Assembly (NCBI GenBank): GCA_028532985.1
Contig: JANCIK010000001.1
Location: 3,968,001-4,032,000 of the forward strand
Origin: Stropharia rugosoannulata
Taxonomy: Eukaryota; Basidiomycota; Agaricomycetes; Agaricales; Strophariaceae
DNA: 64,000 nt
Reading direction: 5' to 3'
How positions within the stretch are numbered: the stretch's first letter is position 1; the number at the start of each line of letters is the position of its first letter. Both the position numbers and the translations under genes were made by a program. The notes below the pieces were generated by a model. It saw only the letters and a list, made by a program, of their open reading frames with translations, had not been told where the DNA came from and did not search any database. Positions 19,485 through 60,899 of the stretch are shown here, piece after piece.

Positions 19485-19526
19485 TGTTACCACTGCCTCT
19501 GATTGTTTTTTGCGACTCACCGAAAA

Positions 19527-24507: not shown

Positions 24508-24512
24508 CTCTC

Positions 24513-25297: not shown

Positions 25298-25392
25298 GCG
25301 TCGCTCAATCTAGGGGATAGGATCTTGCTCTGCTGGGGTTGTCTGTGTTGTGTTCCTTGTGATTTGAGTCTAACCCTGAGGCAGACCTCTCA
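25298..25392 (-). mobile_element. second truncated LTR terminus
   Basis: Another copy of the first ~95 bp of the same LTR family, again in minus orientation and starting TGAGAGGTCTGCCTC at 25392. It abuts the previous fragment, so two LTR ends lie in tandem. Confidence 0.65.
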
Positions 25393-30930: not shown

Positions 30931-31204
30931 GAAGAGAACTACGAGATCAAGGTTAGGGTAACGAGACTTGGAACGGCGTCTGAAGTCGCAAATATCACTT
31001 TAAAATTGTCTGAGCTAAAGCTCGCAGACCTTCCAGTTTGACAGATTAGCGGTCATAATCAATCAACGTGTTAATTGGCCTTCCGATCCACAGCGTCGTA
31101 GGAGGGAATGCTCTGTAGCATTCAACCCCCTTCAAAGACTGTCTGCGTATGGTTCGAGTCTGTTCAAGAATAATAGCGCCAGTGGCTTGAAATTGCACCG
31201 TTTG
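30931..31204 (+). repeat. 274-bp inverted repeat, left copy
   Basis: Matches the reverse complement of 60626-60899 over its full 274 bp with about two differences by eye. It includes hairpin A1 of the paired-hairpin family (31101-31131). Confidence 0.85.
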
Positions 31205-31830
31205 ATCCATCACATAGTGAGGAATTTCACGTACTGGAGTAAGTTAGGGGGGACAATATCGACCCCCTAGTATATTCACGCAGGTCGAAGAAGGCATAAT
31301 GATACGAACGAAGACGTCGAGTACACGACTTGACGGATTGGCGGCCGGGCGATTGACATGCCATATTTCCGTCCCTCCAGTCGACGATATCTCAGGAGAG
31401 AATGCTCTGCAGCATTCAACCTCCTTCAAACGTCTCAGTAAACTTCAAGTCCGTCCAAGAATAATAGAAGTGGGAGTATTTGTCAGAGCTGGCCAGGACT
31501 GGAGCAAGTTAGGGAGGACAATGAATGTCGACCCCCTGGTACATTCACGCAGGTCAAAGAAGACATAATGGTACGAACAAAGACGTCGAGTACACGACTT
31601 CATATTGCCGTCCCTCCAATCGACGATATCTCAGGAGGGAATGCTCTGCAGCATTCAACCCCCTTTCAAACGTCTCAGCAAAGCTCAAGTCCGTCGGCCA
31701 GCAGGACTGGAGCAAGTTAGGGAGGACAATGAATGTCGACCCCCTGGTAGTATATTTGCATGGCCTATGTATCGCTGCCTTCTAATCGACAGGATCTCAG
31801 GAGGGAATGTTTCGCATCATTCGACCTCCT
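31101..31830 (+). repeat. tandem alternating hairpin array
   Basis: Two hairpin types alternate. Type A is GAATGCT-CTGC-AGCATTC flanked by GGAGG and AACCCCC (31101, 31395, 31634, degenerate at 31799). Type B is GGGAGGACAATGAATGTC followed by GACCCCCT (31246, 31511, 31719). Centre spacing falls from about 145 to 80 bp. Short frames in between are not genes. Confidence 0.75.
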
Positions 31831-33023
31831 TCGAACACAGTTTGAATACGCTTTGGAATTTGCTGGTATCTACGGTGGAGAGGCAACCGGCACCTGCGAA
31901 AGTCTTGCGTAGCTACGAAATTCTGTACATTGACGCCTGTAAGGGGAGGACATGGAGAGCTGACTGTCTTGAAGTGGCTGCCAATGTTCATATACTGCAG
32001 CAAGTATGGGGAGAAGATGAATAGGACAATCGGATGTCTTAGTAATCGTCGGAGCAATCAAGCCGAGATCAATCTGTTAGCTCGGTGGCACGCGCGCGCG
32101 CGCACGCGGAAATACTTCAAGCTGATCAAGAACTTTGTGCGTACCTGTCTATATTTGAGGAAATAACACCAGGCTTGCATTGGGCTTGCACGAATGAAAC
32201 TTCAAATCAGTGAAAAGTCACTACATGATTGCAAGATATTAGAGAGATAAGGGTGCTGAGACTGGATGAATCATGTTACGAGACATGAGCTGGCAGATCT
32301 AAAATTATACGGCTTGACAGATGTACTTACATAGCAGCGGCCACAGCGCCTATGTAAGCGGCACCGATTCTTATGAACTTGTCAATAACAAACATAAATT
32401 AACAAATGGAAAACAAACGTCGTGTCCACATGGGCTATGTTTATCATGCTGGCAGTAATGAACTTAGTCAAGTTCCGCAATCTGAGCTAAAGACCAGAGG
32501 ACTGATTAAAAAGACAGTTCTGAAGTCCTGAGTCATCTATAATCTCGACTTTCAGCAAACGAATTGATTGATCTTTAGTAGGCCTGGGACATTGAAACAA
32601 TAGTTAGGCCGTAGGCGCAGCTCGTACTAAACACACCTCCTGTGGACACATCTGCATTGAAGAGGGGAAATGAGTTTTTCAGGAGGTCAGGTCAGGTTTG
32701 TGAAAGAAAGTGAAAGAATCGGAGGATTGAATATGACGAACTAGTTACAGTGGGAGCCTGGGGACTACTAGTAGTAGTAGCGATTCGGCACAGTTAGCGT
32801 TCAGTGGCTCTACCGGGTATGTACGTATCGTGACTACTAATTAGTATTGGGCTAACGTTGACTTGAACTTGGTGGTAGATAAGGTATTTCAACTTGCGTT
32901 TGTACTAGTACGGGTCTGGCAACAAAAGAGTATAATAAAATCGGTCCGTGAAATTTCGTGTTGACTAATGTAATTGTAAAAATAGAGCATGTATGCCAAC
33001 ATAATAAAGAATTTAGTGATTTT
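31831..33023. other. non-coding spacer
   Basis: About 1.2 kb with no supported gene. It includes a CG dinucleotide run near 32090-32107. Confidence 0.45.
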
Positions 33024-39517: not shown

Positions 39518-40933
39518 TGAGAGGTCTGCCGCGGGGCTAGACTCGAATCACAAGAAACACAACACACACAACCCAGCGGAGCGAGATCCTATCCCTTAGA
39601 TCGAGCGACGCTCTTCAGCTAAGCGGATTATAGATGTCTTCACTTCTCCCGGTACTTCCCTGCTGAGCGGACTGTGATGTGTAAGGGTCTTGCAAGTTCA
39701 GTCCAGATGTCCGCTGTACAGTGCCTGCAAGTTCGTTTTTAAGGAGGGGTTTAATTCTAGAAGTCTCAGATTAATGTCTGGGCAACCTCCGCTGAGCGCA
39801 GGGTATCGATAGTAATGTATAGTTTTGATGGTGGCTCCGCGGGGCTTATTCCGCTGAGTGGGTTTGGGGTCCGGTGACCGATGCAGGTGCTCACACAAGC
39901 TGGTAGTCCCAATTGTGCCTCGCTCCGCTGACTATCCAAAGTCGTTCCGCTGGGACTGTCCAAAGTCCTGTTCCGCTGAGGCTATCCAGAACCTCGTTCA
40001 CCCGGTGGTGCAGTCTTAATTCACAAAAACACTACAGCGCGAGTTTTCGTACACGGTTGTACTGACTCCCCGCTGAGCTCTCCAAATGACCCGGTGGCCA
40101 GAAGCTATCCAAAACTTCTATGATTCACAAAACACTTCACAGTAAAGACCCTAGCAAAAGCTAAACACAGCCCGCTGACGGTCTGGGACGGAGCCCAACA
40201 CACAGATCTAGTGGGTAGACAATTGCTTGATTTCCGTAGTTACAATTACAAGTTTATATAGACGCGCTGTGTACTAATTTAGCTGGAGAGTAAATACTAG
40301 CAACGCCGGACCAAAGGTCCGCTGAGCGCATGTGCCTCCGCTGGGCGTTTTGATGACTACCCCGCTGAGCGCGACCTGACCTCGTTGTGTTGCCAGCCTC
40401 CGCCGAGAGACGCCATTGAACTCCGCTGAGCGGTTCCTTCTGGGTTATTGAGATCTGGTTACCGCTGCCAAAGTTCCCCAGCGGAGTCTGTGCTGTGTGC
40501 ATTATGCCTTCCCTCGGGCATCACACGCTCCAGCGCGCGCGCCACGGTCACCTGACGAGTGGACTTAGGCAAATTTCGCCCTCGTGATGTGTTCTGCTGA
40601 GCCCCTTTTGAGATGCCGTCTACACACAGTCCTGCTCGTCGCCTTTGATATTTTCCGCTCAGCTGTACTCCTGCCTTCCGCTGGGACGACAGTAACCGTT
40701 ATGTGCTCCGCTGACAACTATTCCGGGTACTCCAACTGTGTACTTGTGGTCCGTACAGTCCGCTGAACCCCCACACAAGCGTCCGCGGAGCACATGCGTG
40801 ATAGATTTGTGATACACGCGCTGAGCGCTGAGACGGCTGACCAGGCTAGTCACCGTTCCGCTGTGCCCTTACACTTCAGCCCAAACCGCCCGCTGTGGTC
40901 TCTTACAGCCTTGGTGTAAACGCAGGCCTGTCA
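39518..40933 (-). repeat. gypsy LTR (3' LTR of the minus-strand element)
   Basis: 1416 bp, TG...CA. It matches 54143-55558 except for a GC dinucleotide indel near 40264, one C/G change near 40282 and a small difference near 40360. It contains over 20 CCGCTG or CAGCGG motif copies. Confidence 0.95.
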
Positions 40934-40946
40934 TCTCCCCCTCACT
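40934..40946 (-). promoter_or_regulatory. gypsy polypurine tract
   Basis: On the minus strand AGTGAGGGGGAGA directly precedes the 3' LTR, as expected for plus-strand DNA priming. Confidence 0.85.
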
Positions 40947-41364
40947 AAAAATTTTGACTGTCCTCAGTCAAGTTCCACCTCTATTTTTAGACGCAGTACT
41001 GTCCCCGCGCCTACTTTTAGCACTTCGTTTTCTATTTCTAGCTTCCCTGGGCGCTTATTTCGCTATCTTTAGCCCTCGGCCGTCTCCAATGGCCAATTCC
41101 ATTGTTATTTGCTCCTCTCTCCGCATAAGGATATTCTTCCCCTTTTTCTGTCTTGTGCCGCTGCTTCTAAACCCCCGCTCTCTATGTAGGTCGCCTGAAA
41201 GTTTATGTGACGCCGCCACCCGTACTTTTATCTTCCAGAAAATTCTTCCGCTGGGCAAGCCTTTGTCTTATAAACGTTGGATACTGCTCCTTAGCTCTTT
41301 TCATTCTTTCTTTCCCTCTCCTCCTGCAGACCCCCTGCTCACTTTCCTCCTTATTCTACCTACC

Positions 41365-43365
41365 ATGGCTTTCCGCAATTTCGACCGCCGCCAACGCGAG
41401 AAAGAGCGCGCCGAAGCCCTTTTAGACGCTCAGGACCGCTTCCGCCGCCTCCGTCCCGCGCTCGCTGTTTATCAAGAATTCGAAACGTTGGCGGGGGCCG
41501 ACAACCTGCCCGACGACGGAATGGCGCGACTAGACGAACTGCGGGTGGTCATCGACAACGCTGTCGAGGACCACCTGAGCCTCCATTGCTCCGACGGCCT
41601 CTACCACAACGGGGTTCACGAGTTTTGTATCCTCCTCTCCGCTGTGGCCAACATGCTCATCACAAACGACCCTTCCCTGGCTTCGACGCTGCAAGCGCGT
41701 CGCTGGTTCACGAGCGGTCACCAGCCCCTGTCTTCCTATATCCAATTTTTTGCGACCGCCTTCCCAACTCAGTGGGATGGTTCTCCCACCCCAGGCCCTC
41801 GCCCCCTCGTGAACTCCGCTCCGCGCCTCTCTCCTGTTCTCACTCAGCTTGCTCCCGCGGTTGAGGACATAATTATGGTTTCCGACGACGACGCTCCGCG
41901 GCCCTTTTCGCCCTCGCCAGCGGTTCGCAAAGACAAGCGCAAGCGTCTTCCCTCCCCGCCTGTCGTCTTCGTTCCTCCCGCGCCGCTCCCAAAGCCTATT
42001 AAACGCCAGCGCCCTGCTGCGCTCGCTGCCAGCGCCGCTATTGCTGGTAAGTTTTCTTTTAGATTTCTTTATTTCTCTATCCTGATCCTTCCCAGCCCAG
42101 GCAGATCTCGAGTCCCCAGCGGTAGCTTCCGTCGCCCGCTCCGCTGGTGGCCCTACCTTGGCCCTGACCGACAGCGGAATCGAAGAAATCACTAATACCC
42201 GCCCTGATAGCAACAAAATCGCATACAAGTCTACTTACCCCATTCTCGACGTCTTGCCCCCTGTGTTCTCCGCTAAGCTCGCCCTGGCTGGCGCTCCGCT
42301 GCCCGACGCGATCGACATGAGTATGCTCCCCTCCGAGTCCCGACTTGAAGGCGCTATTATCGTGCGTGTCTCCTTTGTCCGCTGGTCTCTCTTTTTCTTT
42401 TCTTTTACTGACTTATTTCACTTCTCACAGAGGGGAATGGTGTGCAATCACTGCGCTCGTCCCTTCAATGCTCGCATAAATGAAGGCCTTCACCAGTGCA
42501 TCTGCCGTGGGTGGGCGCGGAATTGCTGTACTTGCAGTACTCAGCAAAAAGGAAAATGCCTCTTTTGTTGTGAGCCCGCGGAGGTCGACAAAACTATCGA
42601 GGACTCCTCCCTGTGGCATCGCACTTCCTTGACCAGTGAGTCTATTTCCCATCTCTTTTCTCTTATTCTGACTTGTAATTTTCTTTCTTTCTAGGCCTTC
42701 TGTCTGGCTTCGCTCGCCTCAGCGCCTATACAGAGCAAGCTCGCGTGGCCGAAGAGCAGCGCCGCTCCGCGGAGCGCATGTTCTTTGGTCAACTCATTGA
42801 ACTTTCCCAGCTGGCGCGCGCTATGGCGCTCACCCTTCCCACTGGGATCATTATTGGCCCGCGCTTCCGTGATTGCAAAACCTTCGACGCTCTCCGCTGC
42901 CTCGACCTCGGTCGACTCCACGAGGCCTACGCCTCTCTTTGTGCCCCCGCTGTCGTGGAAGACCCCCTTATCGTCGCCCCCGCCGCCTCTTTCTATGATC
43001 CAAAGCATCCGTGCTTCGATCCTACCACCTTCATCCCTGCCCCCCAGCCTGACCAGGCCATCACGCTAGAGGCCTTCAATGCGGCCGAATCTCAAGCTTT
43101 CGAGGACGCGGCCCTCCGCCAAGCTGAAGAGGCCGACGCTATCATCGCAGCGGAGAAGGTCAAACGCTTGCGCGATCGTTCGTCCAAGAGAGGGACTCCC
43201 GCGGAAGGCTCTCTCCCTGCCACTCCGTCCGCCAGTACTTCGCGCCTCGAGCCCCTAACCACCGCTTCCAAGGGCAAGGCCCCCGCTGTGGTTCGTACCT
43301 TCCTGACTCCTTCGCGCGTCCCTAGCGAGGTTGACGCTGCCGAGGTTCCCGCGGAGGGGGATTGA
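41365..43365 (+). CDS. antisense cargo gene 1: Cys-rich 607-residue protein
   Basis: Four exons (41365-42046, 42096-42361, 42431-42635, 42695-43365) with GTAAG, GTGCGT and GTGAGT donors join to 607 residues. The N-terminus is charged and helical (MAFRNFDRRQREKERAEALL), then Pro/Ser-rich with a basic stretch RKDKRKRLPSPP that could be a nuclear signal. Exon 3 encodes a Cys/His cluster: CNHCARPF, then HQCICRGWARNCCTC, then CLFCC, a probable zinc-binding domain. Exon 4 is helical and ends with an Ala/Glu-rich coil and a Ser/Thr/Pro tail. It lies on the strand opposite to gag-pol. No family recognised; DNA or RNA binding is a guess from the Cys cluster. Confidence 0.8.
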
Positions 43366-43824
43366 GGGATGTTGCGCGCTCCGCTGGTTGTCAGGCCTTG
43401 GGGCCTTTATTTCTCTTTTCTACATTTCTTGTTCTCCTGTATCTCTTTTACTTTACCTGGCATATGTAAAGTAAATAAATGTCTATCATAATTTATATGC
43501 CCTCTTTTTAATCCTCTTTTACTTGTGTGAACCTGAAATTTCCGAGGTCCGTTGTCATTTTCTTAAGTCTTCTGTCAGGATTTTGCCCCGCTGAGCGACC
43601 TGCCGACCTCTGAGTGGATGACCTAATTGTTTACCCAGGTTCTTCTACCCTTGACTCTCTCCTGCTGCGTGTCCCTGGTTTCTTTCTCTTCTTGTCAAGT
43701 CCGCTCAGCGGACTTCTTTTCCCCACACGTGCTCCGCGGCCAAATTTTTAGCGGGCTCTCTCCCCCTCACTATAAAATCAACTGTCCCCAGTTGACAGAC
43801 TCTTTACTTTTCTTTTTCTCCATC
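43366..43824 (+). promoter_or_regulatory. spacer between cargo genes 1 and 2
   Basis: About 460 bp. It carries AATAAA-like TAAATAAATG near 43470 after gene 1, a near-palindromic GTCCGCTCAGCGGAC at about 43700, and a CACTATAAAA box near 43775 about 50 bp before the gene 2 ATG, a plausible TATA element. Confidence 0.5.
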
Positions 43825-44296
43825 ATGCAACGCTACCAGCGCACGAATGTCGCCCGCCAGTTCACCTGCATCCTCAAGCAGCTGGCTGTCCATGCTGAGC
43901 TCACCGAAGACTCCGCTGAGGCCACGCTCCATTTGCCATTGCAGTCCGCGCAGGCGGTTGTCCGTGCTCTGGTAAGGCCTACTTCTATAGATTCTACTCC
44001 GCTGACTATTTCCACAGGATCGTATTACCCTTCCGCTGAGATTCGTTGACTTTAATCGTCAATTTCTATCGTTCCTCATGACCATCGTGTTTTACGAGGC
44101 CCGCGCCCAGCGGAAGTTCAGCGATGATCACTTCGACCCCCGCCTACTCAGTAATGCCGCCTTACGTGTTCTCGACCGATACAGTCATCTGGGCATGCCA
44201 TTCCATCTGCTGCCTTCTTCTGAGCGAATTGCAGCCGATGTTCAAGAAGTGGACCCTGATGCCGCGCTCATCGTAGACGACGTGTGCTCTGATTAG
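43825..44296 (+). CDS. antisense cargo gene 2: 141-residue protein
   Basis: Two exons (43825-43971, 44018-44296) over a 46-bp GTAAGG...CACAG intron. The product starts MQRYQRTNVARQFTCILKQL. It is mostly helical with Leu-rich segments (DRITLPLRFVDFNRQFLSFL, RLLSNAALRVLDRYSHLG) and ends in an acidic tail. No known domain. The upstream TATA-like box and clean intron support a real gene transcribed against gag-pol. Confidence 0.7.
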
Positions 44297-44365
44297 GGCG
44301 GTCCGCTGCGCTGACCATCTCCATATATAATATAACTCCCTCTGTCTGTAGTTGTATACGTCAAC

Positions 44366-44910
44366 ATGCCCTCCTTGTCCGCTGAGCGTAATCTCTTATT
44401 ACTTGCACATTCAGATCCTCGCATCCTTCGTCTCGATGCTTTGTCTAGGCGTCCGCTGAGTGACATTCCTCCCCACGATGTAGCCCGAGTATGCCGAATC
44501 TATATAACTGCCCTTCACTATATTCTGGACTCCGCTGCAGAGGAACGGCTACCCATGAGTGTCTGTCTCCTGCTGCTTAACCGAGTTCAAGATCATGCTG
44601 TAAGCCCTTTCTCCCCTGTCCATGCACTCCCGCTGAGTAGTCCGCGCAGCGCGGCCTAGAACTGACCGAGTCCACCTGTCATTCACTGCTTCTTTCTCAT
44701 CTCTGTGCTCAGCTGTATTACACCGAACTTGTGCTTCGCCTGTGTGGTACCAACGACGCTGAGCGCTACGGCGTTCTTAATCACACCGAACACTTTCAAC
44801 GCCTCCATTATGCCGCCCAGCATTTCTACCAGGAGGACTTCTTCCCCGTCTGTCCCCTTTTTTCTTCCTCCTCCGCTGCGCTGAGACCCGGATTATGTCA
44901 GGATGTTTGA
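44366..44910 (+). CDS. antisense cargo gene 3: 143-residue protein
   Basis: Two exons (44366-44599 and 44713-44910) join over a 113-bp GTAAGC...CTCAG intron. The start is MPSLSAERNLLLLAHSDPRI. Size and helical Leu-rich character are like cargo gene 2 (RVCRIYITALHYILD, LYYTELVLRLCGTND), but no clear sequence match was seen. An ATATATAATATAA stretch lies about 40 bp before the ATG. No family recognised. Confidence 0.65.
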
Positions 44911-45362
44911 GGCATTGCGCCCCTTCCTTGGTTTACTCCGTAGAGTACCCTTGTTACAGTAACCAGAGTAAATGGCTCTACATGTGGTGCCTCCATAGCT
45001 ATTTGAAATGACAAGTATCTAGTTAGGCACTATGTATTGTCGGTGCCAATACCTGATTCGGACATAATTTTTCCAAATGCGGTAATCACACGATCAGCCT
45101 CCGCTGAGCGCTTTCAGCTAGGCGTGCCTCTCCGCTGGATCTCATTTCGTCTACCAATTGCTCCCGCTCTGCACCCTGTTTTATGCGAGCCTGCATGTGG
45201 TGGTCTGTTTCTACCTCCAGCGTTCATGCCATAACTCCGCTGCGAGTCTGGTCCGCTGGGATGCCACATTCCTCGCCGCTGGCCGCCCCTCCTTAGGTCC
45301 TCTGTGCTCTACTGAGCCTATATATATGCCCTACTCTCATACTTTCAATCACTCAGCCACTC
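44911..45362 (+). other. spacer between cargo genes 3 and 4
   Basis: About 450 bp. Several TCCGCTGAG motif copies (near 45100, 45130, 45238, 45250) and a TATATATATG box near 45322, about 40 bp before the next ATG. Confidence 0.45.
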
Positions 45363-46678
45363 ATGTCCAACGCACCCGCTCCGCTGTACAACTTTAGTAA
45401 TGTCAAGCATCAGCTGGCATTAATCCAAGATATCAGAGGCTTGGCTTCCGCCATGCCTTCCAACTATACCGGGAGCCTCGAGCTTCTGGCTATTGACTTA
45501 GTACACACAACACTCAGCTGGTCCGCTGGGTCCTTTTACTCCGCTGACCACTCGAACTTTTTTAGAACCGCTGGCGTGATCCCCACGGTGGCATTACTCG
45601 TATCATTAATAACAGCGAGGCTGTTGATATTCTCAACGAGACGCGTGCCATCTACACCTCCTTAGAGGCGGATCACCACTTCCGCACTTTCTCTCCCGCT
45701 GCCAACGCTTTTATCACTCTGCATGAGCAAGTTTTAAAAGCGAAAGCCGCTGCCTCGCGTCAGCGCATGCATACTCCCACTGGACCCGTACGCTGTGTGC
45801 TTGCTGCCTCTCTTTATCTTTTAACCGCCCGCTCAGCGCAATGTTCGCCTCCTCTCGCGCTCCGCTGCCGATCCTGAGACGGTATCTGCCCCTGGAGGTA
45901 CCTCATCCCCCGATTCCGATGATGACAAGGTGTGGCTGACTTCCTTCACCCTTTTAGATATTACTAACATGCAGCTGTACCTCCTCCTTAAAAAGATGGC
46001 CCTTGATGACAAGATCGAGGCTGCCACTGAGGGCGGAGTACCTAGCCGCCAGAATACCCCAGAGCCTAGCCCTTCGAAGAAGCGCTCAGCGCCTCCTCCC
46101 GACACTCCTCGTCAGGTTCGTTTTGTTGCGTTTTCCCTCCCTCGTTACTTTCTCACTTCTATGTCAGCGGGAGCGTACTGAGGCCAACGGACATCGCACT
46201 CGTGCGCTTGGCCGCGGCATGACACTCCGCTCCTCTGACAACCGGCGCTCTCCGCGCGACACACCGTTCCACGACGCTTCCTCTAAGAAGGCCCGTCTCG
46301 GCGCTGACGGCGTTCCTACTTTCGCCGATTCTCCTTTCATTGTACAGGGTGCGCTCTTTGCCCTCACTCTTCTCCGTTGCGTCCGCTGAACTACTTCATC
46401 TTCTTTTAGGTACCAATCTTACTCTTTCGAATGACAAAGTCAATGCCTGTCTCGACGCTGCTACCAACCTCATTAAGGAACCGCTGAACACCGGGAACCC
46501 ATCCGAGCTCGTCACTCGCCGTCTCATCGGAGACTTGCAAGCTGAGATCATCTGTGACTTGCACAAGATTGACTTCATCCTGAAGCGCCGCGCTCTGCTC
46601 GTTAAAGAGTTAGAGACTTTACAGCGCAGCTTGGATTTGACAGGGACCAGCCCCGCTGAGGAGCCCGCGCCGCAGTGA
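45363..46678 (+). CDS. antisense cargo gene 4: 347-residue protein, 6 exons
   Basis: Exons 45363-45500, 45566-45787, 45837-45929, 45975-46115, 46168-46348 and 46410-46678 join in frame with GT-AG introns of 45-65 bp. The N-terminal half is helical (NVKHQLALIQDIRGLASAMP, EAVDILNETRAIYTSLEADH). A Ser/Pro-rich basic middle follows with SPSKKRSAPPPDTPRQ and DASSKKARLG, possible nuclear signals. The C-terminal part is a helical pair (KIDFILKRRALLVKELETLQ). The stop lies only 120 bp from the end of pol on the other strand, so the two converge. No family recognised. Five introns kept in frame are strong evidence for a real gene. Confidence 0.78.
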
Positions 46679-46798
46679 TGACCCTCTTAATTACTCCGCT
46701 GAGCGCCTCAAAGTGGTCCTTAACTAGTTTCTTTTGTACCTTTCTCCTTTAGTTTACCCAATATACTCTATTGTGGTCTCCTTTTCTACTTTGTGCCT

Positions 46799-49700
46799 CT
46801 AAGCATCGGGCTCCGCCCACCCATCCTCATCATCATCTTCTTCGTCCGCTGAGACTCGGCCGCTGCCTGAAACCACTCCTGGTTCATCAAAGATGTAGTC
46901 TTTAGGTATGGCCGGCTCGTAGTCTGGTGCTGACATCATCTTGTTGAGGTTCTCGCGCGTTTGATCAATGATATCGTCTAAGTCCGCTGGCAGCTTCAGC
47001 TGACGCCTGGCAAAGTAGGGTATTAAGCGGAATGCTGCGACTTTGTCTTTCAGCACCGACCCATCCAGCTCAGCGACTAGATAAGCGCCTCCTTCCTTCC
47101 GTGCGATGACGATGTATGGTCCATTCCAGCGCGCCAACATTTTGCGATTTAAGCTGGACTCAATGCCAGAGTTACGCATCAGTACGACATCGCCAGGTTT
47201 GAATGCATAGTCTCTGATCTTAGCGGAGTGTTTCCGCTCAAACTCTCTAATAGCATCCCGCTTTATCTTTGACACCCGCTGACGCATCTCCTCCACTGTG
47301 TCCCTGTGTTTGGCCAGCGCGCGCGCACGATACCCTACTAACTCCTCTGTGGTAAGTACCCGATCTGGTAACTTGACCAGCCACGTCGCTTCAGCGATGT
47401 CCAGCGGTAGTATCGGGTGCGTGCCAGTGACCATGAAGAAGGGTGAACACCCAAATCCTCGGCGGACTGTAACACGATCCGCCCACAGCACATGGTAGAA
47501 GAACTTGCTCCAGCGCTTATGTGCGCCCTCGGTACCTCCACACGCTTTCCACAACATTTGTCTGATGTCCCAATGGGGCCGCTCTATCTTTCCGTTCGCC
47601 TGAGAGTTGTACGCTGAGATTGTAATCCCTGTAATACCATACTTCTTTTCTAAGTACTTGAGCGCTGCGCGGAATGGTCCACCGTTGTCTGTGATTATCT
47701 CTCTAAGACATCCCCAGCGGCAGATAATATCCTCAAACATCCACTGCGCTATCGCCCTTGCGTTCTCTTTCTTCAGCGGACGACCTTCCACCCATGAGCT
47801 CAGCGCGCACCGCCCGTGCACTATGTAGTTGTACCCATTCGAGGCAGGTGACATGTGCATAGTGTCCGCGTGTAGCTGCTGGAAGATGGACGGCGTATGT
47901 GTCTCTGTCCGCGGAATCTGGATAATCGTCTTTTGCCTCAGCTGACACACATGGCATGTCTTGACATACCAGTAGACATCCCGCTCCAGCTCTGGCCACC
48001 AGAAGCGCTCCATCAGCAGTTTGCGTGTGGCGTATGCGCCTCTGTGCCCCAGACTGTCATGTGCAGCGCGCAACATGCGCGTCCGCTGAGCGGGATCAAC
48101 TACCAGCTTATGTGCCTCGTCCACTGAGCGCCGGTACATCCGCCCATCCTTGTCTAAGAAGAAGTTTCGTGCATTACGGATGAAATTCTGATACTCCCGT
48201 TTGCTCATATCCTTGGGTCTTGTACTGGGATTTTGCAGCCAATACCTTATCATTGGCAGCTTACCATCCATGTCCTTCCCCGCTGACGTTCGATTCCGCT
48301 CATCGTACTCTTCGTCTTCCAACTCATCTATCCTTGACTCGGGAATTACATGTGCCAGAACAAATTTCTCTAAGTACGCCCGCTGAGCGGGCGACACCTC
48401 CTCTGTCTGTAAGAAGTTACGCACTGTCCGCTGTTCTTCTCTCGTCTCTTTTCTAGCCCGCTCCAGTTCTAACTGGAAGCAGTCAACCGAATGTGCCTCC
48501 GTTCTAGCTGGCTCAGCGGGACCATCAAACAACTCGTTGAGGAATCCAGCTTGGAGATACCCTCCGCGGTCGTCAATCTGGTCCTTGAACTCTTCTAAAC
48601 TCAGCGGATCGGGATCCTCTTCATACACTTTCTCGTGTTCCAGCGGACCTACTTCTTGGTCATCATCCTCCGCTGAGTGCTCATACTCTTCATCTCCTGC
48701 TTGTCCTTCTCGTCGTGACAGACCGTCCGCGCCAAACGTTTTGCCTGCTACATGCTTCAGCTGAAAGTGGTACATAAGGATCTTGTCTATCCAGCGGTTA
48801 ATGGTAGCGTTAGGTCCCATGCCCGGATTATCCAACATCCCTTTGAGATATTTGGCATCTGTCTCCACTACCAACTTCCGCGCTCCGATGAGCCAGTAAT
48901 AGCATGCCTGCAGCGCCCGCAATAGCCCGTATAGCTCTCTCTTTGGTTGTGAGAACCGCTGTTCCCTCTCAGTTAACAGAATTGACCCAAAGCGGGCGTA
49001 CACGCGCTTCTTCGCGTTCAGCGGATCTTGCTGGTAGATATAAAATCCTACAGCGCGCCAAGACGTATCTACTGCCAGCGTGATTGGTCCTGGCAGTGTA
49101 TAGTCCAGCGGCTTAACACAGTGTGCGTTCCGCACTCCATCCTTCAGTGCGTCCATACTGGCTTGCTGCGCTGGCCCCCACTCGAAGGGTTCTTTCCCAC
49201 GCAACAATCGCTGTATGTGCTCCGCTCGCTTAGCGTAGTCTGAGATGTAAATACGCAGGAGCCCCATCGTACCCATGAAGGCGCGCACATCGCTGACATT
49301 CTTACACAGCCCCCAGTTGAGGATAGCGTGTACTTTATCTGGCGCTGGCTTTCGACCCTCGTAGGTACATAAGTGTCCCACCACTACAATCTCCGCTGCA
49401 CACAATATGGATTTCTTTCCGCTGAAAGTCCCTCCTGAGTACTTCATCCGCTGAACTATCCTATTCACATTCTGCATGTGTTCCCACACAAAACGCCTGA
49501 TTCTGCTGTTCTCTGGAATCGTCTCATACCCTCCATCCTCTAATTCATACCGTGTCTTTGGTCCGCGGATAGGTACGTCGTCAATGTACGGTTCCGTGAC
49601 GTCTGGTATTTCATCGCGGAGAATATAAGTTACGTCTTCATGGAAGATGGGTACAGAATTGGTCCAGCCCATTGGTAAGGTTACTAAGCGGAGCGCACCA

Positions 49701-50833
49701 AACGGTGTCTGGAATGTTGTTAAGTCGCGAGACGACTCCGCTAAGAGCCGCTCGTCGTAGCCTACATACAAGTCCAGTATTCCGCCACACGCGCGCCCAG
49801 CGAAGTGTTCTGCCAAACTCTCTGCTGCCGGCGGCAATCCTGAGTGTGCGATGGTAACAGCGTTCAGCGGCTCTAAGCTGTGTACTATTCTAAAGGACAC
49901 CCCATCTTTCTTTGTTACTGTGAACCAGCGCGACCGGTACGATGAACTGGATGGTTCATAAGTCCCAGCGCGGATCTTAGTAGCGATGAACTCGCACACC
50001 CGCTCATACATGCCTGGCGGAATGGGTATATTTTTCAGTACCCACGGCGTATGTTCTACCGTTGGAATATCCACCGGCGGGAAGAAGTCTGTTCTAAACC
50101 TCCCCTTTTCCGTGTCATCCCACGCAAACGCCTCATTCTGCTGCATGAACACCTGATGTACTAGCTTGCGCTCCTCTGGCCACAGGAAATCTCCTCCGTG
50201 CGCTTTATCTATTTCCTCCTTCCGCTCCGCTGTGTACCTTCCCGTGGGTACAAACTCTGGTGGGTGTACCGTCAGCGGAGGCATTTCTTTCAGCAGATCT
50301 CCCTTTATCTCCCTCACTATCCTGAATTTCTCTGGTAGCTCTTGATAAACGGGCCTGACCTTGTCAGCGACCGGCTTATATTTCTTTCCTGCAAAGACGG
50401 TTACAGTAGTGGCATTCTTACCACTTAACCGCTTTCTAGTTACTCCTTTCCGCGCTGACTGGCCTTGCTCGAGGTCCGCTGAGCGGAATTGCCCCCTAGG
50501 CTCTCCTTTCACTGTCTCTTTTTCTCGCCATTCCTTTTGCTGAAAGTACTTATAAATTGATGCTTTCTCTTTATCCTCCATCTTAGCCTCGTGCACAGCT
50601 TGAGCCATGTACACATCTCTCAGCTCAGCGGAGCCAAATCTCCCTCCCTTCTTTGGCAACGCATACCCCGCTATCTCTATCTTTCCAGTCCTATCATCCC
50701 GCTCGAACATTAACGCGACCTCTCCTTGACGCATCAAATCATCGAGGACTGAAAATCCTGGTCGGCGTGCGGCTCCTCCGCTGCGCTGGAGTCCTGCACA
50801 TCTGGCTCCCGCTGAAGTATCTTCGGCCCGCAC
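46799..50833 (-). CDS. gypsy Pol: reverse transcriptase, RNase H, integrase
   Basis: 1344 codons from a GTG-preceded frame; the first ATG is at 50734, leaving 1311. RT: SRWFTVTKKDGVSFRIVHSL, LDLYVGYDERLL (motif A) and the catalytic box EPYIDDVPI near residue 416. RNase H: TLAVDTSWRAVGFYIYQ and PKRELYGLLRALQACYYW. Integrase: HHCC zinc finger (HDSLGHRGAY...TCHVCQLRQ), then DDE residues in LHADTMHMS, IITDNGGPF and SQANGKIERP. A chromo-like tail FKPGDVVLMRNSGIE follows. All catalytic residues are present. The ATG overlaps the upstream stop as TGATG. Confidence 0.95.
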   Translation of the reverse strand: MRAEDTSAGARCAGLQRSGGAARRPGFSVLDDLMRQGEVALMFERDDRTGKIEIAGYALPKKGGRFGSAELRDVYMAQAVHEAKMEDKEKASIYKYFQQKEWREKETVKGEPRGQFRSADLEQGQSARKGVTRKRLSGKNATTVTVFAGKKYKPVADKVRPVYQELPEKFRIVREIKGDLLKEMPPLTVHPPEFVPTGRYTAERKEEIDKAHGGDFLWPEERKLVHQVFMQQNEAFAWDDTEKGRFRTDFFPPVDIPTVEHTPWVLKNIPIPPGMYERVCEFIATKIRAGTYEPSSSSYRSRWFTVTKKDGVSFRIVHSLEPLNAVTIAHSGLPPAAESLAEHFAGRACGGILDLYVGYDERLLAESSRDLTTFQTPFGALRLVTLPMGWTNSVPIFHEDVTYILRDEIPDVTEPYIDDVPIRGPKTRYELEDGGYETIPENSRIRRFVWEHMQNVNRIVQRMKYSGGTFSGKKSILCAAEIVVVGHLCTYEGRKPAPDKVHAILNWGLCKNVSDVRAFMGTMGLLRIYISDYAKRAEHIQRLLRGKEPFEWGPAQQASMDALKDGVRNAHCVKPLDYTLPGPITLAVDTSWRAVGFYIYQQDPLNAKKRVYARFGSILLTEREQRFSQPKRELYGLLRALQACYYWLIGARKLVVETDAKYLKGMLDNPGMGPNATINRWIDKILMYHFQLKHVAGKTFGADGLSRREGQAGDEEYEHSAEDDDQEVGPLEHEKVYEEDPDPLSLEEFKDQIDDRGGYLQAGFLNELFDGPAEPARTEAHSVDCFQLELERARKETREEQRTVRNFLQTEEVSPAQRAYLEKFVLAHVIPESRIDELEDEEYDERNRTSAGKDMDGKLPMIRYWLQNPSTRPKDMSKREYQNFIRNARNFFLDKDGRMYRRSVDEAHKLVVDPAQRTRMLRAAHDSLGHRGAYATRKLLMERFWWPELERDVYWYVKTCHVCQLRQKTIIQIPRTETHTPSIFQQLHADTMHMSPASNGYNYIVHGRCALSSWVEGRPLKKENARAIAQWMFEDIICRWGCLREIITDNGGPFRAALKYLEKKYGITGITISAYNSQANGKIERPHWDIRQMLWKACGGTEGAHKRWSKFFYHVLWADRVTVRRGFGCSPFFMVTGTHPILPLDIAEATWLVKLPDRVLTTEELVGYRARALAKHRDTVEEMRQRVSKIKRDAIREFERKHSAKIRDYAFKPGDVVLMRNSGIESSLNRKMLARWNGPYIVIARKEGGAYLVAELDGSVLKDKVAAFRLIPYFARRQLKLPADLDDIIDQTRENLNKMMSAPDYEPAIPKDYIFDEPGVVSGSGRVSADEEDDDEDGWAEPDA
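50732..50736 (-). promoter_or_regulatory. UGAUG stop-start overlap between protease and pol
   Basis: The protease-frame stop TGA (50736-50734) shares its last base with the first in-frame ATG of pol (50734-50732). Such overlaps support termination-reinitiation in some retroelements and mycoviruses. The frames also overlap by 100 nt in minus-1 register (50734-50833), but no good slippery heptamer was found there. Confidence 0.6.
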
Positions 50834-52002
50834 CCCCGATTATACGTAGGTACCACTAGCTTCCGCTGAGTGTTTGGGTCCGTCAGCGTAAGTTCCACTG
50901 TGCCATCCCCGCGCGTCTTCACATTGCTTTCAGTGAGAATTTCAAACGGCTTCCCCAACAGAACCTCATAGGCAGCCGCGCTGATAACGTGCACTTGTAG
51001 GTACACTGTCAGTCCGCTGAACACAAAAGGTACATTCCGCGCTAAGCCCTTAGTCGACTCGACTTGTTTGTTAGCGCTCTGCATCCTAATGGTAAAGTCA
51101 GGATCCCAGCTTAAGCCTAGTCGCTCCGCGGTATCTTGCGCCATGGACACTATTTGCGATCCGCTGTCGAGCAGAGTCTCTGCACGGCCTTTCCCATTGA
51201 TCAGCGGAAATACCGCCTTGAGATGGTGCGACTCTCGTGCCACAATTAATCCCTTTGGCTTTTCGCCTGGTTGTAACGTCGAGATGTATTGCTCATAGGG
51301 ATCCTCCATGATTATTGTGCCGGGTTGTAATCCACCGCGCTCCTCCGTGCAAGTGAGGAACGTCGCCGCTGGGAGCTCGTCCATTCGCATGAACTCTTCT
51401 TCTTCATTCTCCTGCTTCAGCTGGGCGATGGCCTCGTCCATCTCCCACTCCTCTGCCTCATAATCCAGCTGCAAAACCCGCATGGTATTTACATCCAGCG
51501 GAACTTTGCGCGGTATGATATGCTCGACAAACTTCCTCCTAAACCCCGCTGTAGAGATCCCCAATAATTGCCCTTGAGTGATCTCTATTTTCTGGCTCTC
51601 TAAACGCTTAAGGACTTTGTCCGCTTGCACTTCATCCTCAATGGCCGCGCGCAACTTATATGCTGGCTTCCTTTTCTCTATCACTGGCACCGGCGCTTCT
51701 CTTACAGGCGGCCGACTCTTTTCTGGAACGCGCAGCGGAGGAACCATTACATACGGCACCTGCGCTGGCTTTTTATTCTCCCCAACTTTCTGCGCTGGCG
51801 CTGCGAAGCTTACTTTCTTTTTCTCTGCTCCGCTGGGCGCCTGTCTACTAATCTCTTCTATAAACTCTTCCTCATCTCCGCTGTCGACCTCCTCGATAGT
51901 TGTCCTTGGTGTACTTCTTACTGGTAGCTTCTTATTTACGTCTTCCGGGTTCTTGGGTTTATCAGAGCCGCTACGCTGAACTCTGCCCGCACTTCCCTTC
52001 AT
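50734..52002 (-). CDS. gypsy protease-region protein
   Basis: ATG at 52002 (MKGSAGRVQRSGSDKP), 422 residues; if reached by frameshift it is fused to Gag. N-terminal disordered, Lys/Pro-rich region; central helical region (RMDELPAATFLTCTEERGGL); then the retropepsin: AVFPLINGKGRAETLLDSGS with the DSG active site, ending VLLGKPFEI. It processes Gag and Pol. The frame is minus-1 to gag and overlaps the end of gag. Confidence 0.85.
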   Translation of the reverse strand: MKGSAGRVQRSGSDKPKNPEDVNKKLPVRSTPRTTIEEVDSGDEEEFIEEISRQAPSGAEKKKVSFAAPAQKVGENKKPAQVPYVMVPPLRVPEKSRPPVREAPVPVIEKRKPAYKLRAAIEDEVQADKVLKRLESQKIEITQGQLLGISTAGFRRKFVEHIIPRKVPLDVNTMRVLQLDYEAEEWEMDEAIAQLKQENEEEEFMRMDELPAATFLTCTEERGGLQPGTIIMEDPYEQYISTLQPGEKPKGLIVARESHHLKAVFPLINGKGRAETLLDSGSQIVSMAQDTAERLGLSWDPDFTIRMQSANKQVESTKGLARNVPFVFSGLTVYLQVHVISAAAYEVLLGKPFEILTESNVKTRGDGTVELTLTDPNTQRKLVVPTYNRGCGPKILQREPDVQDSSAAEEPHADQDFQSSMI

Positions 52003-52007
52003 CAGAC

Positions 52008-53957
52008 TCAATCGAAACCCTGGCTCAGCGCTGCATCCCGCTCCGCTTTCATGGTCGCGATCAGCTGCCGATTTTCCTCTATCACCTCCTCTGGCGTCTT
52101 GACCGCTGAGCGCTCTTTTAAGAACGCCTTCCGACTGTCCAGCTCCTGCTGCAGCGTTCGAATTTGCTCTTCATAAGTCTCATCGAGAGAGCTGGCTGGT
52201 TGGTAGACCTGGGCGTACACCATGCTCGGCGGAGTCCCCATGTACACTGGGTGTACCGGCGCCATGTAGGTCTGCTGCGCTGGCGGCCCATTCTTCTTAT
52301 GCCACTCATCTACACGTTCTTTGATAGCGCGCGAAGGGTCCCAAGGTAATGACGATCCATCTGGCAGCTGGAGCCTTCCAGCTTCCGTGATGATTATCTT
52401 CCCAGCGGACAGATCCTGTTGCCTCACAATACACTCCGCTACGATGTGTCCCGTCTGTTTACAATAGAAGCACCTCGGTTCAGGTCGCTGTTGGTATTGA
52501 AACGGACGCGGCGGCGCTCCGCTGAAACCTGGTCCTCCCATTGGCATCATAGGTACCGCTGGCTGGACTGGCGCAGCGACAGGCGCCGCCCGCGATGACA
52601 TTACATTGCGCAGAATATCTTCCAACTCCTTCTTATTGGTCTCCTTTGACTTCGACACCGTCTTTTCTACCAGCGACAACGTATCTTTAAACGACGCTAC
52701 AAAACCCTTCAAGTCCTCAATCTCCCCGCGCAGCGTATGCACCTCCGCTGACTCGGTCTTGATGGCAGGCACAGGCATGAGCCCGTCCGCTGAGTCTCGA
52801 GTCAAGCTGAGCGAGGTGCTAGGATTCTTGGTGCGCGCCATCTGCTCTGCCATTTCCGCCACCTGCTTCAGCGGATACATGTCCTCAGTCCGCGCTTCCA
52901 CCTGAATCCCCGCTGGCGCCGTAAAGGGTATATTGTGTTCCTTTAGGTACTTGTCAAACGATGTTCTCGTAGTGTAGTCGATATCCAGCTTGTTAAACAA
53001 CCTCTCCCTGAACCCCGCTGTGAGACTGTTGGTGAAGTAGGTCACCAGCGTATGATTGGCCAGCAAGGTAGGCGCCTTGGTCAACTTCGCTGCCTCCGCT
53101 AAGAATGCCCGCTTGAAGTCCAACAGCACCTGGAGGTCTTCCTCCGAGATGCGCTGGTTCTCCTTGCACAGCTTCTTTAGGCGCGCGATGGACCCCGTCT
53201 GAATACTGATCACCTCAGGATATTCATTGAGGATCATTTTCTTCAGCTCAGCGTAACTCTTGGTGTCATAGCCTGGTAAATTCTTCCACTCCTCCGCTGT
53301 CTGCATGGGTACATATTTGATTACATAGCCTCTCCTCTCATCATCCTCCGTCACCTCAGCGCGCTTGAACCAGTCCTCTAAGTCCTCGAAGTAGCGTGGG
53401 AGTTCATCACGCTCAGCGGAGGGGTCGAAGCTTGGTGCACCGCGCGCTCCGCGCACAGGCATAGATGTTTCCTTAGGCATGGTGATAATTTCAGGGGGCA
53501 GTTCGTGTTCACTTGTGGAAAGGTCTGACAAGTCTCCTTCAAATATATCTCTGGCCACGTGCTCGGCCTCACTCTCACTATTATCTGTCGTCCGCTGAGC
53601 GGATCTCTTAGCAGTCTCGAATACTTCCGAAAACGGAGGAGGTGTGTCTTGAGTAGCTTGGCTATCTGATGAGCCAAATGGTGCAACTTCAAGCGTAATG
53701 TTTCCGTCCGCTGAGCAGTCGTCTGTTTCAATTCCAGAAGGCGGTCCCCAGAATCCGCTGGGCCCATCCTCCCGCTCTGAGTCACTCTCTGTAAGCGCTC
53801 CTGGTATGCGCTGAGCAAGATCCTGCGTTTCTATCTGTAGCCACGCCTCTTCCCTTGCTTTCCTCTTCGCTTTTCTATCTCGAGTAGGTGTAATCACCAA
53901 TGGTTCCACAAGCTCAGCGTCTTTCTTGCTCCTAGTCAATCGCCCGCTTGGAGGCAA
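52008..53957 (-). CDS. gypsy Gag capsid-nucleocapsid protein
   Basis: An open frame with no ATG before 53480; from that ATG (MPKETSMPVRGARGAPSFDP) it is 490 residues. Upstream the frame stays open to about 54090 and encodes an acidic, low-complexity extension. Capsid: LPRYFEDLEDWFKRAEVTED, SYAELKKMILNEYPEV and FTNSLTAGFRERLFNKLDID. Nucleocapsid: CCHC knuckle CFYCKQTGHIVAEC. It ends LSQGFD then TGA. Translation may begin at the internal ATG, at a non-AUG codon or on a spliced leader. Confidence 0.88.
   Translation of the reverse strand: MPPSGRLTRSKKDAELVEPLVITPTRDRKAKRKAREEAWLQIETQDLAQRIPGALTESDSEREDGPSGFWGPPSGIETDDCSADGNITLEVAPFGSSDSQATQDTPPPFSEVFETAKRSAQRTTDNSESEAEHVARDIFEGDLSDLSTSEHELPPEIITMPKETSMPVRGARGAPSFDPSAERDELPRYFEDLEDWFKRAEVTEDDERRGYVIKYVPMQTAEEWKNLPGYDTKSYAELKKMILNEYPEVISIQTGSIARLKKLCKENQRISEEDLQVLLDFKRAFLAEAAKLTKAPTLLANHTLVTYFTNSLTAGFRERLFNKLDIDYTTRTSFDKYLKEHNIPFTAPAGIQVEARTEDMYPLKQVAEMAEQMARTKNPSTSLSLTRDSADGLMPVPAIKTESAEVHTLRGEIEDLKGFVASFKDTLSLVEKTVSKSKETNKKELEDILRNVMSSRAAPVAAPVQPAVPMMPMGGPGFSGAPPRPFQYQQRPEPRCFYCKQTGHIVAECIVRQQDLSAGKIIITEAGRLQLPDGSSLPWDPSRAIKERVDEWHKKNGPPAQQTYMAPVHPVYMGTPPSMVYAQVYQPASSLDETYEEQIRTLQQELDSRKAFLKERSAVKTPEEVIEENRQLIATMKAERDAALSQGFD
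52014..52020 (-). promoter_or_regulatory. minus-1 ribosomal frameshift site G_GGU_UUC
   Basis: On the minus strand the gag codons CAG GGT TTC GAT TGA contain GGGTTTC in the exact X_XXY_YYZ register. Slipping back one base gives GGG TTT CGA TTG AGT, which continues into the protease frame. The gag stop is four bases after the heptamer. A short downstream stem (CAGAG with CTCTG) can form, but it is weak. Confidence 0.75.
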
Positions 53958-54122
53958 TATACCAAATGATGGTCTAGCCTCCGCTGGTTCTGCTAGCGAC
54001 GACGGTGCAGGAAATTTGCCTCGCTTGTTACTCGTCCCCGTTGTATTTGAAATTTTTGAAATGTTTTGTAATAGGCGCTAAGCCGTGGTCCCCGAAACAC
54101 TATATGAGATTTCTGAACCTAC

Positions 54123-54140
54123 CCCTCGCGGTGGGCTCCA
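54123..54140 (-). promoter_or_regulatory. gypsy primer-binding site
   Basis: Two bases inside the 5' LTR, on the minus strand: TGGAGCCCACCGCGAGGG. TGG matches the CCA end of a tRNA, so this is a conventional tRNA 3'-end primer. I cannot name the tRNA. Confidence 0.75.
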
Positions 54141-54142
54141 GA

Positions 54143-55558
54143 TGAGAGGTCTGCCGCGGGGCTAGACTCGAATCACAAGAAACACAACACACACAACCCA
54201 GCGGAGCGAGATCCTATCCCTTAGATCGAGCGACGCTCTTCAGCTAAGCGGATTATAGATGTCTTCACTTCTCCCGGTACTTCCCTGCTGAGCGGACTGT
54301 GATGTGTAAGGGTCTTGCAAGTTCAGTCCAGATGTCCGCTGTACAGTGCCTGCAAGTTCGTTTTTAAGGAGGGGTTTAATTCTAGAAGTCTCAGATTAAT
54401 GTCTGGGCAACCTCCGCTGAGCGCAGGGTATCGATAGTAATGTATAGTTTTGATGGTGGCTCCGCGGGGCTTATTCCGCTGAGTGGGTTTGGGGTCCGGT
54501 GACCGATGCAGGTGCTCACACAAGCTGGTAGTCCCAATTGTGCCTCGCTCCGCTGACTATCCAAAGTCGTTCCGCTGGGACTGTCCAAAGTCCTGTTCCG
54601 CTGAGGCTATCCAGAACCTCGTTCACCCGGTGGTGCAGTCTTAATTCACAAAAACACTACAGCGCGAGTTTTCGTACACGGTTGTACTGACTCCCCGCTG
54701 AGCTCTCCAAATGACCCGGTGGCCAGAAGCTATCCAAAACTTCTATGATTCACAAAACACTTCACAGTAAAGACCCTAGCAAAAGCTAAACACAGCCCGC
54801 TGACGGTCTGGGACGGAGCCCAACACACAGATCTAGTGGGTAGACAATTGCTTGATTTCCGTAGTTACAATTACAAGTTTATATAGACGCGCGCTGTGTA
54901 CTAATTTAGGTGGAGAGTAAATACTAGCAACGCCGGACCAAAGGTCCGCTGAGCGCATGTGCCTCCGCTGGGCGTTTTGATGACTACCCGCTGGCGCGAC
55001 CTGACCTCGTTGTGTTGCCAGCCTCCGCCGAGAGACGCCATTGAACTCCGCTGAGCGGTTCCTTCTGGGTTATTGAGATCTGGTTACCGCTGCCAAAGTT
55101 CCCCAGCGGAGTCTGTGCTGTGTGCATTATGCCTTCCCTCGGGCATCACACGCTCCAGCGCGCGCGCCACGGTCACCTGACGAGTGGACTTAGGCAAATT
55201 TCGCCCTCGTGATGTGTTCTGCTGAGCCCCTTTTGAGATGCCGTCTACACACAGTCCTGCTCGTCGCCTTTGATATTTTCCGCTCAGCTGTACTCCTGCC
55301 TTCCGCTGGGACGACAGTAACCGTTATGTGCTCCGCTGACAACTATTCCGGGTACTCCAACTGTGTACTTGTGGTCCGTACAGTCCGCTGAACCCCCACA
55401 CAAGCGTCCGCGGAGCACATGCGTGATAGATTTGTGATACACGCGCTGAGCGCTGAGACGGCTGACCAGGCTAGTCACCGTTCCGCTGTGCCCTTACACT
55501 TCAGCCCAAACCGCCCGCTGTGGTCTCTTACAGCCTTGGTGTAAACGCAGGCCTGTCA
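54143..55558 (-). repeat. gypsy LTR (5' LTR of the minus-strand element)
   Basis: 1416 bp, partner of 39518-40933. It should hold the element promoter driving gag-pol leftward. Confidence 0.95.
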
Positions 55559-60730: not shown

Positions 60731-60899
60731 ACGACGCTGTGGATCGGAAGGCCAATTAACACGTTGATTGATTATGACCGCTAATCTGTCAAACTGGAAG
60801 GTCTGCGAGCTTTAGCTCAGACAATTTTAAAGTGATATTTGCGACTTCGGACGCCGTTCCAAGTCTCGTTACCCTAACCTTGATCTCGTAGTTCTCTTC
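60626..60899 (-). repeat. 274-bp inverted repeat, right copy
   Basis: Reverse complement of 30931-31204 with about two differences, same length. Confidence 0.85.

Follow-up and report, generated by a model that had tools for sequence, protein, structure and literature searches.

Open reading frames (ORFs) that run antisense to pol, between it and the 3' long terminal repeat (LTR), are described in passages on the plant gypsy elements Retand, Grande, RIRE2 and PvRetro13 (PMC11963269, PMC7264820). Here, we analyze four spliced genes that occupy this position in a Ty3/gypsy retrotransposon of the basidiomycete Stropharia rugosoannulata. The element spans 39518-55558 (16.0 kb) of a 64,000-nucleotide stretch of contig JANCIK010000001.1 (assembly GCA_028532985.1, positions 3,968,001 to 4,032,000), which we call the window and whose coordinates we use throughout. 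The four genes, hereafter the cassette, had been noticed in an earlier reading of the sequence (the original prediction), which pointed to antisense ORFs in Grande and RIRE2, as in the sources above. We conclude that the four genes are almost certainly functional accessory genes of a Ty3/gypsy lineage.

According to the same passages, Grande gene23 has its own promoter and a nuclear product, and the function of the antisense ORFs is called unknown; the word "intron" does not occur in the text of either paper (PMC11963269, PMC7264820). As far as these partial descriptions go, the Retand/Grande type resembles our element in belonging to the gypsy superfamily and in carrying antisense coding sequence between pol and the 3' LTR in most copies, and the pol-3' LTR region is long in both (2.9-6.6 kb in the plant elements, 5.9 kb here). 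The TRP28 domain (PF04195), in contrast, is given for 97% of Retand clusters (PMC11963269, PMC7264820) and was absent from genes 1-4 in our Pfam search. The S. rugosoannulata element further differs from the plant elements in having four spliced genes, one of them hypervariable, a family-specific motif throughout the element, and a fungal host.

An antisense gene, brtn, was reportedly found in Boty-like elements by Zhao in 2011. In the excerpts we draw on, Boty, a gypsy element of Botrytis cinerea, is a fungal case with this antisense gene (PMC7264820, PMC8365987, PMC4227169). Our element is like Boty in being a fungal gypsy element with additional antisense coding and unlike it in having four such genes rather than one; the likeness is one of description, not of sequence or introns. 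The original prediction had called a four-gene spliced cassette in a fungal element unfamiliar, and none was found in the literature searched, as judged from titles, the starts of abstracts and some passages; what that claim overlooked is the single antisense brtn of Boty. A passage of PMC11963269 adds HBZ of HTLV-1, an antisense retroviral gene that is regulatory and has a nuclear product. HBZ, too, is likened by description, and it is one gene against four separate ones here.

VANDALs are Mutator-like DNA transposons that carry VANA, VANB and VANC. As passages of PMC5735166 describe them, VANC proteins bind short motifs that abound in the VANDAL family encoding them, and the two evolve together. 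Our element resembles this system in having a short motif of the family's own at high density, with related families differing in motif, and, for gene 1, in combining conserved and variable regions with a diverse exon-intron organization (PMC5735166). VANDAL motifs are found chiefly in non-coding tandem repeats, and their binding by VANC has been demonstrated (PMC5735166), whereas here the motif is interspersed, lies in coding sequence too, contains CpG, and is a candidate binding target. By analogy, the element would work like VANC at most, its carrier being an LTR retrotransposon and no VANDAL. The element belongs to the antisense-ORF gypsy kind and has four such genes and a VANC-like motif pattern. 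The hypervariability of gene 1 and the family-specific motifs were not part of the original prediction.

The four genes and the selection acting on them

The interval from the pol stop (46799) to the 3' LTR (40933) holds four plus-strand genes and two associated signals, as follows.

41365-43365, plus strand: gene 1, 607 amino acids (aa), introns 42047-42095, 42362-42430 and 42636-42694
43459-43473, plus strand: GGCATATGTAAAGTA (also given as GCATATGTAAAGTA) downstream of gene 1, its core GCATATGTAAWGTA kept in 8/8 aligned lineages
43762-43795, no strand assigned: second box of polypurine tract plus dyad, containing the TATAAA that precedes gene 2 (the gene 2 box)
43825-44296, plus strand: gene 2, 141 aa, intron 43972-44017
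44366-44910, plus strand: gene 3, 143 aa, intron 44600-44712
45363-46678, plus strand: gene 4, 347 aa, introns 45501-45565, 45788-45836, 45930-45974, 46116-46167 and 46349-46409

These spliced models agree with the original prediction in coordinates and intron count (three, one, one and five introns in genes 1-4), and all ten introns are GT-AG. Since gene 4 taken alone leaves many alternative splice chains open, the gene models were settled by comparing other copies; the AG that ends gene 1 intron 1 at 42095 is conserved across copies. The predicted TATA-like boxes ahead of three of the start codons were also confirmed: they lie at 43771, 44323 and 45318, 43-54 bp upstream of the gene 2, 3 and 4 ATGs, and are kept in six of six copies. 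Downstream of gene 1, GCATATGTAAAGTA at 43459-43473 is nearly invariant in all eight gene 1 lineages, and its flanks are far more variable. This stretch is likely the gene 1 3'-end signal, a reading for which we rely on its presumed resemblance to TATGTA-like signals.

Genes 1-3 were aligned across 11 copies, ten at 83-92% DNA identity over gene 1 and one (L013) at 71%. The gene 1 frame is whole in nine of the 11 (L006 and L011 are shifted), and gene 2 of L002, L003 and L011 has small indels adding up to three. Introns and intergenic DNA carry many indels whose length is not a multiple of three, and exons are mostly free of these. For gene 4, compared in six other copies, the GT and AG of all five introns are kept in every copy, introns 1-3 vary in length by 1-2 nt, and the sole exon indel is a 1-nt loss (a frameshift) near the C terminus of one copy. 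Differences per site, at codon positions 1/2/3 and in introns, were as follows.

Gene 1: 0.068/0.051/0.256, introns 0.254 (exons from nine copies, L006 and L011 excluded; introns from 11)
Gene 2: 0.078/0.040/0.206, introns 0.168 (11 copies)
Gene 3: 0.041/0.041/0.121, introns 0.066 (six copies)
Gene 4: 0.012/0.012/0.070, introns 0.068 (six copies)

Positions 1 and 2 of gene 1 change about 4-5 times less than position 3, and the third-position rate equals the intron rate in genes 1 and 4 and is somewhat faster than introns in genes 2 and 3. The original prediction had proposed measuring the ratio of nonsynonymous to synonymous divergence (dN/dS) across copies, and it is low for all four genes (0.04-0.23 in unshifted copies). 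Relative to the window, it is 0.09-0.17 for gene 1 (nine unshifted copies; 0.37 and 0.11 in the shifted L006 and L011), 0.11-0.15 for gene 2 (eight copies without local indels; 0.26, 0.47 and 0.14 in the indel-bearing L002, L003 and L011), 0.10-0.17 over the first 129 codons of gene 3 (11 copies) and about 0.04-0.23 in five copies of gene 4.

Random breakage of the frames in other copies, which would have counted against the original prediction, was not observed. By spliced alignment, 21 of the 29 family 1 gene 1 loci, including the window's own, are open, meaning that they start with ATG, reach query residues 605-607 and contain no frame break or stop, and eight are damaged or partial. The 21 are an upper estimate, as the aligner may disguise a lesion as an extra intron and some alignments end 1-2 residues before the stop; they score 1290-3117, against 41-79 for control alignments to other window DNA and reverse complements. 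The count omits L015, L024, L025 and L026, which are further pieces of copies counted as L012, L023 and L027. The substitution pattern indicates that the four genes are under purifying selection and are more than chance ORFs.

The cassette as a regular part of the lineage

A search of the genome (48 Mb in 20 contigs) with the window's pol yielded 473 candidates, of which 35 were scored: the window's own copy and 11 others at 97-100% aa identity (family 1), one at 92%, and 22 at 88-90% (family 2). Antisense gene 2 (among the matches listed) and its box lie 2.5-3.4 kb from the pol 3' end in 30 of the 35 (11/12, 0/1 and 19/22 in the three classes). The remaining five have neither within 8 kb, and two of these (C3:1830999 and C13:1524218) retain parts of the gene 2-4 region. 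With 40 scored among 142 candidates, 26 other copies align along most of genes 2-4 at 89-96% DNA identity, and full-length LTR matches have 90-99% identity (40 of 327 scored). The gene 2 box has 91 genome matches (≤2 mismatches; none for the reversed pattern), pointing to some 90 copies, complete or incomplete, that carry the cassette.

In a family 2 cassette, L037, the four genes are all present and intron-bearing, with order and strand unchanged. Relative to the window, its proteins are 71% (99/139), 62% (84/135) and 77% (265/342) identical for genes 2, 3 and 4, with two frame breaks in gene 4, and gene 1 is 41% identical over residues 6-511. Own-genome matches number 129 for gene 1 and 165 for gene 2, with neighboring pol checked for some only, and no host homologue was recognized among the matches inspected, which are a part of the total. 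The original prediction had described functional cargo or accessory genes that travel with the element; function (by selection) and travel (by the 30 of 35 pol copies) both hold, and we replace "cargo" with "accessory genes" since the lineage carries the cassette as a standard component.

A family-specific motif throughout the element

The whole element carries a short motif.

39518-55558, no strand assigned: family 1 motif TCCGCTGAGCG/CCGCTG, with 8.5 CCGCTG per kb versus 0.36 per kb in the 38.9 kb outside

CCGCTG commonly stands within TCCGCTGAG, and its sites are spread over the LTRs, the cassette genes and the DNA between them, and the coding sequence of gag, protease and pol. The genome contains 522 matches to TCCGCTGAGCG and 24 to the reversed pattern. 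Against 500 synonymous-codon shuffles, family 1 pol has 27 CCGCTG, in all three frames, versus 4.9 ± 2.0 (maximum 12), and family 1 gag has 14 versus 2.6 (maximum 7). The writing of an element-wide motif into the codons of gag (52008-53957) and pol (46799-50773) is the most surprising feature that we observed.

In family 2 pol, CCGCTG is near chance (4 versus 2.6 shuffled) and TGCGCG is enriched (24 versus 7.6 ± 2.5, maximum 15); TGCGCG does not rise above chance in family 1 pol (6 versus 5.0). Family 2 has 14 copies of the palindrome TGCGCGCA in the 6-kb stretch with the cassette, seven in 2.2 kb of the LTR side and four in pol (0.4 shuffled, maximum 4), outside DNA has none, and three further family 2 gene 1 stretches have the same family 2 motif. 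Both family motifs contain CpG. Given about 89% protein identity between the two pols, the motif switch would be due in good part to synonymous change. A short motif that is dense, family-specific and rare outside the element is the pattern of the VANC/VANDAL type (for family 2, in one element).

In three comparisons with non-independent cells, family 1 motif sites were conserved more often than GC-rich control hexamers that hold CpG: 66% versus 50% (95/144 and 1444/2875, L006 and L011 excluded), 75% versus 56% (74/99 and 483/869) and 84% versus 75% (86/102 and 756/1002). With the window included, each copy has 19-25 motifs over genes 1-3 (12 copies) and 14-18 over the gene 4 part (seven copies). 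In-gene density is lower in L030, L039 and L040 (1.9-3.5 per kb) and in L018 (3.0) than in six others (5.3-6.0).

Hypervariability and recombination of gene 1

Within family 1, gene 1 alleles range from 100% to about 50% aa identity in elements whose pols are 97-100% identical, and several gene 1 lineages occur among 11 near-identical pol copies carrying gene 1. Introns 2 and 3 recur at a constant place, extra introns are called in other lineages, and intron 1 is absent from L020, L021, L028 and L029, four loci of one allele lineage. Between lineages, gene 1 synonymous divergence (dS) is 1.0-3.1 with dN/dS 0.07-0.28 (ten pairs measured), versus 0.08-0.15 at the pol end relative to the window (four copies). 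Element by element, pol-end and gene 1 dS are 0.147 (333 codons) and 1.34 for L013, 0.13 and 0.548 for the C7 element, and 0.08 and 0.234 for the C12 element.

In gene 1, the window is nearest the C7 copy (dS 0.548, against about 1.96 for the C1_4886 lineage, taken from L021 since L020 is shifted), and in gene 2 it is nearest the C1_4886 copy (0.117, against 0.495 for the C7 copy). This flip of nearest relative between adjacent genes indicates that recombination has shuffled gene 1 alleles between otherwise near-identical elements. We considered and dropped the idea that gene 1 is exchanged site-specifically at the two boxes resembling polypurine tracts, as divergence begins and ends at varying places, and no special swapping site is therefore needed. 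Gene 1, which adjoins the 3' LTR, is thus present as several old, divergent alleles moved among elements by recombination, most likely through template switching between co-packaged RNAs.

Features of the cassette proteins

Exon 3 of gene 1 contains C-x2-C-x12-H-x-C-x8-C-x2-C-x7-C (window spacing), invariant in seven of seven aligned sequences, and the family 2 cluster has two extra residues following the H. We dropped a GAL4-like Zn2C6 assignment for this cluster, since its spacing differs from the features of that family and it has no Pfam match. Most of the 15 aligned gene 1 proteins have basic stretches (DKRKR, KRQR or similar), and those of genes 1 and 4 resemble nuclear localization signals, which suggests a nuclear destination. 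The exon 4 model of gene 1 is mostly helical where ordered, at low confidence. Retroviral env was excluded as an identity for the genes, since they are antisense, and reading by eye showed no membrane span.

In the protein database, a pol segment gave 1292 matches among 7999 scored, the best 88% identical, and the database therefore contains related pols. In the IMG/VR viral contigs, neither gene 1 exon 4 nor pol had a match.

A possible mechanism and its alternatives

We propose that the cassette genes are transcribed from promoters of their own, with the TATA-like boxes serving genes 2-4 and the likely 3'-end signal serving gene 1. Their introns would persist because the genomic RNA, being complementary to the cassette genes, lacks their splice sites. 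The original prediction had given this reason for introns in the plant elements, and it fits the copies examined here except for the loss of gene 1 intron 1 in four loci. One or more cassette proteins would then recognize the motif of their own family and keep its elements expressed or unsilenced. The Cys/His cluster and the basic stretches make gene 1 the first candidate reader, and gene 4, which is basic and the most conserved, or a complex, may read the motif instead. When the lineage split, motif and proteins would have changed together, from CCGCTGAG to TGCGCGCA or the reverse, and the most variable gene would have been traded by recombination. Taken as a whole, an explanation by accessory genes and a motif-recognizing regulator is the one we lean toward, with moderate confidence. 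That a cassette protein is such a regulator is in itself a tentative proposal, and a full self-recognition, anti-silencing system, in which spliced antisense cassette proteins bind a CpG-containing motif throughout the element, gag and pol codons included, is slightly more doubtful still.

Several results count against this proposal. All family 1 gene 1 alleles share one motif, with no co-variation of motif and gene 1 within the family, and alleles about 50% apart have the same motif background, which speaks against gene 1 as the reader. Genes 2-4 also diverged between families (71, 62 and 77% aa identity), singling none out, and the pol and LTR side of family 2 was sampled in one element. Genes 1-4 have no Pfam match (E up to 5), nor have four relatives of genes 1-3 (E up to 10); gene 1 and its exon 4 alignment found no protein at E ≤ 0.001 (about 8000 candidates scored of 5.8 billion), and gene 1 has no sequence relative in PDB (E up to 5), so that no known domain points to DNA binding. 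AlphaFold gave poor models for exon 3 (mean pLDDT 45, pTM 0.27) and exon 4 (67 and 0.35) of gene 1. Of the 29 gene 1 loci, eight have lesions or are incomplete. Finally, the family 1 motif is strand-biased, with 89 plus and 27 minus sites (right LTR and 5' untranslated region excluded), and this bias may leave room for recognition at the RNA level.

The strand bias would fit a role of the cassette proteins in replication (particle assembly, nuclear import or RNA packaging), with the motif as an RNA signal on the genomic RNA. Four co-conserved, uncharacterized proteins could form a complex for such a purpose, and the mostly helical exon 4 model, for what its low confidence allows, is compatible with it. 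In family 1 pol, however, the motif lies on both strands (15 plus, 12 minus), the family 2 motif is palindromic as DNA, both motifs contain CpG, and the basic stretches in genes 1 and 4 hint at a nuclear location; we consider this explanation unlikely. Equally unlikely, in our judgment, is a self/non-self or immunity-type role for gene 1 (e.g., in copy control or exclusion of a rival family), with its old alleles kept by rare-allele advantage. The depth of gene 1 divergence relative to the pol end and the presence of several lineages within 11 near-identical pol copies speak for it, but ordinary recombination among older subfamilies yields the same picture without selection for diversity, and gene 1 dN/dS is low in all ten pairs.

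That the genes are host passengers, a cargo serving the host, seems very improbable. Their introns and promoter-like boxes are host-like, and the 129 gene 1 and 165 gene 2 matches were inspected for adjacent pol only in part; yet the cassette has the same place in two families, stands beside 30 of the 35 scored pol copies, and has no known domain in genes 1-4 and no outside homologue of gene 1 among the proteins scored. We give almost no credence to the ORFs being antisense shadow frames of non-coding or pol-sense sequence. Long frames do arise by chance in GC-rich DNA, and the opposite-strand ORF at 42691-43008 (105 aa) is open in six of 11 copies, with stops or shifts in the other five. The longer minus-strand ORF at 41530-42228, by contrast, is broken in all 11, and codon-position rates, splice-site conservation and dN/dS all favor the plus frames, which refutes shadow frames for the cassette.

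Architecture of the carrier element

The remaining parts of the element, in which gag, protease and pol all lie on the minus strand, are listed below.

39518-40933, minus strand: 3' LTR (pol sense), 1416 bp, TG...CA ends
40934-40971, minus strand: polypurine tract, in plus-strand view CCCCCTCACT..., with adjoining dyad TTGACTG...CAGTCAA
46799-50773, minus strand: pol, with RNase H and integrase H2C2 zinc domain matched
50734-52011, minus strand: protease ORF, aspartic protease domain
52008-53957, minus strand: gag-like ORF, zinc knuckle at 18.3 bits, under the curated cut-off of 20.8
54143-55558, minus strand: 5' LTR (pol sense), 1416 bp, TG...CA ends

The LTR pair stands out as direct repeats with 14,625 bp spacing. 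The LTRs are 99.2% identical (three mismatches and eight gaps in a 1434-column alignment extending a few bases beyond the LTR) and are flanked by a 4-bp target duplication, ACGC. The domain order protease, RNase H, integrase H2C2 is the Ty3/gypsy order. Models of reverse transcriptase and the integrase core had no match to the window's pol at E ≤ 5; PF00078 and PF00665 are given for some relatives. With its LTRs, TG...CA ends, target duplication, polypurine tract and pol order, the carrier is a Ty3/gypsy LTR retrotransposon.

The polypurine tract and its dyad show few changes across eight aligned gene 1 lineages and have 43 genome matches (≤2 mismatches), with none for the reversed pattern. 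The gene 2 box is a near-duplicate of 40937-40971 with compensating stem differences (TTGACTG..CAGTCAA versus CAACTG..CAGTTG), and the tract tends to be alike among the boxes of one family (CCCCYTCAC for family 1 and CCCCCCCAC for family 2). The gene 2 box may be an internal (central) polypurine tract or a shared promoter box.

Other repeats in the window

A relative of the element with LTR pieces, some of them inverted, lies at 17331-25315 and is partly 88-92% like the element's LTR. The stretches 17331-17955 and 24691-25315 are 99% complementary, and several CG sites in this relative read TG or CA by eye, as decay of methylated CpG would give. Repeats of 65-77 nt occupy 31068-31831, and 30931-31204 (274 nt) is 99% complementary to 60626-60899, a separate repeat family.

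Implications

Spliced genes of such elements are probably misannotated as host genes in fungal genomes. Perhaps 90 cassette-bearing copies, two families, natural allele swaps and two motifs make the purpose of antisense genes testable in this lineage. If the motif is the true target, retrotransposons would have independently evolved a VANDAL-like, sequence-specific self-recognition, inside coding sequence.

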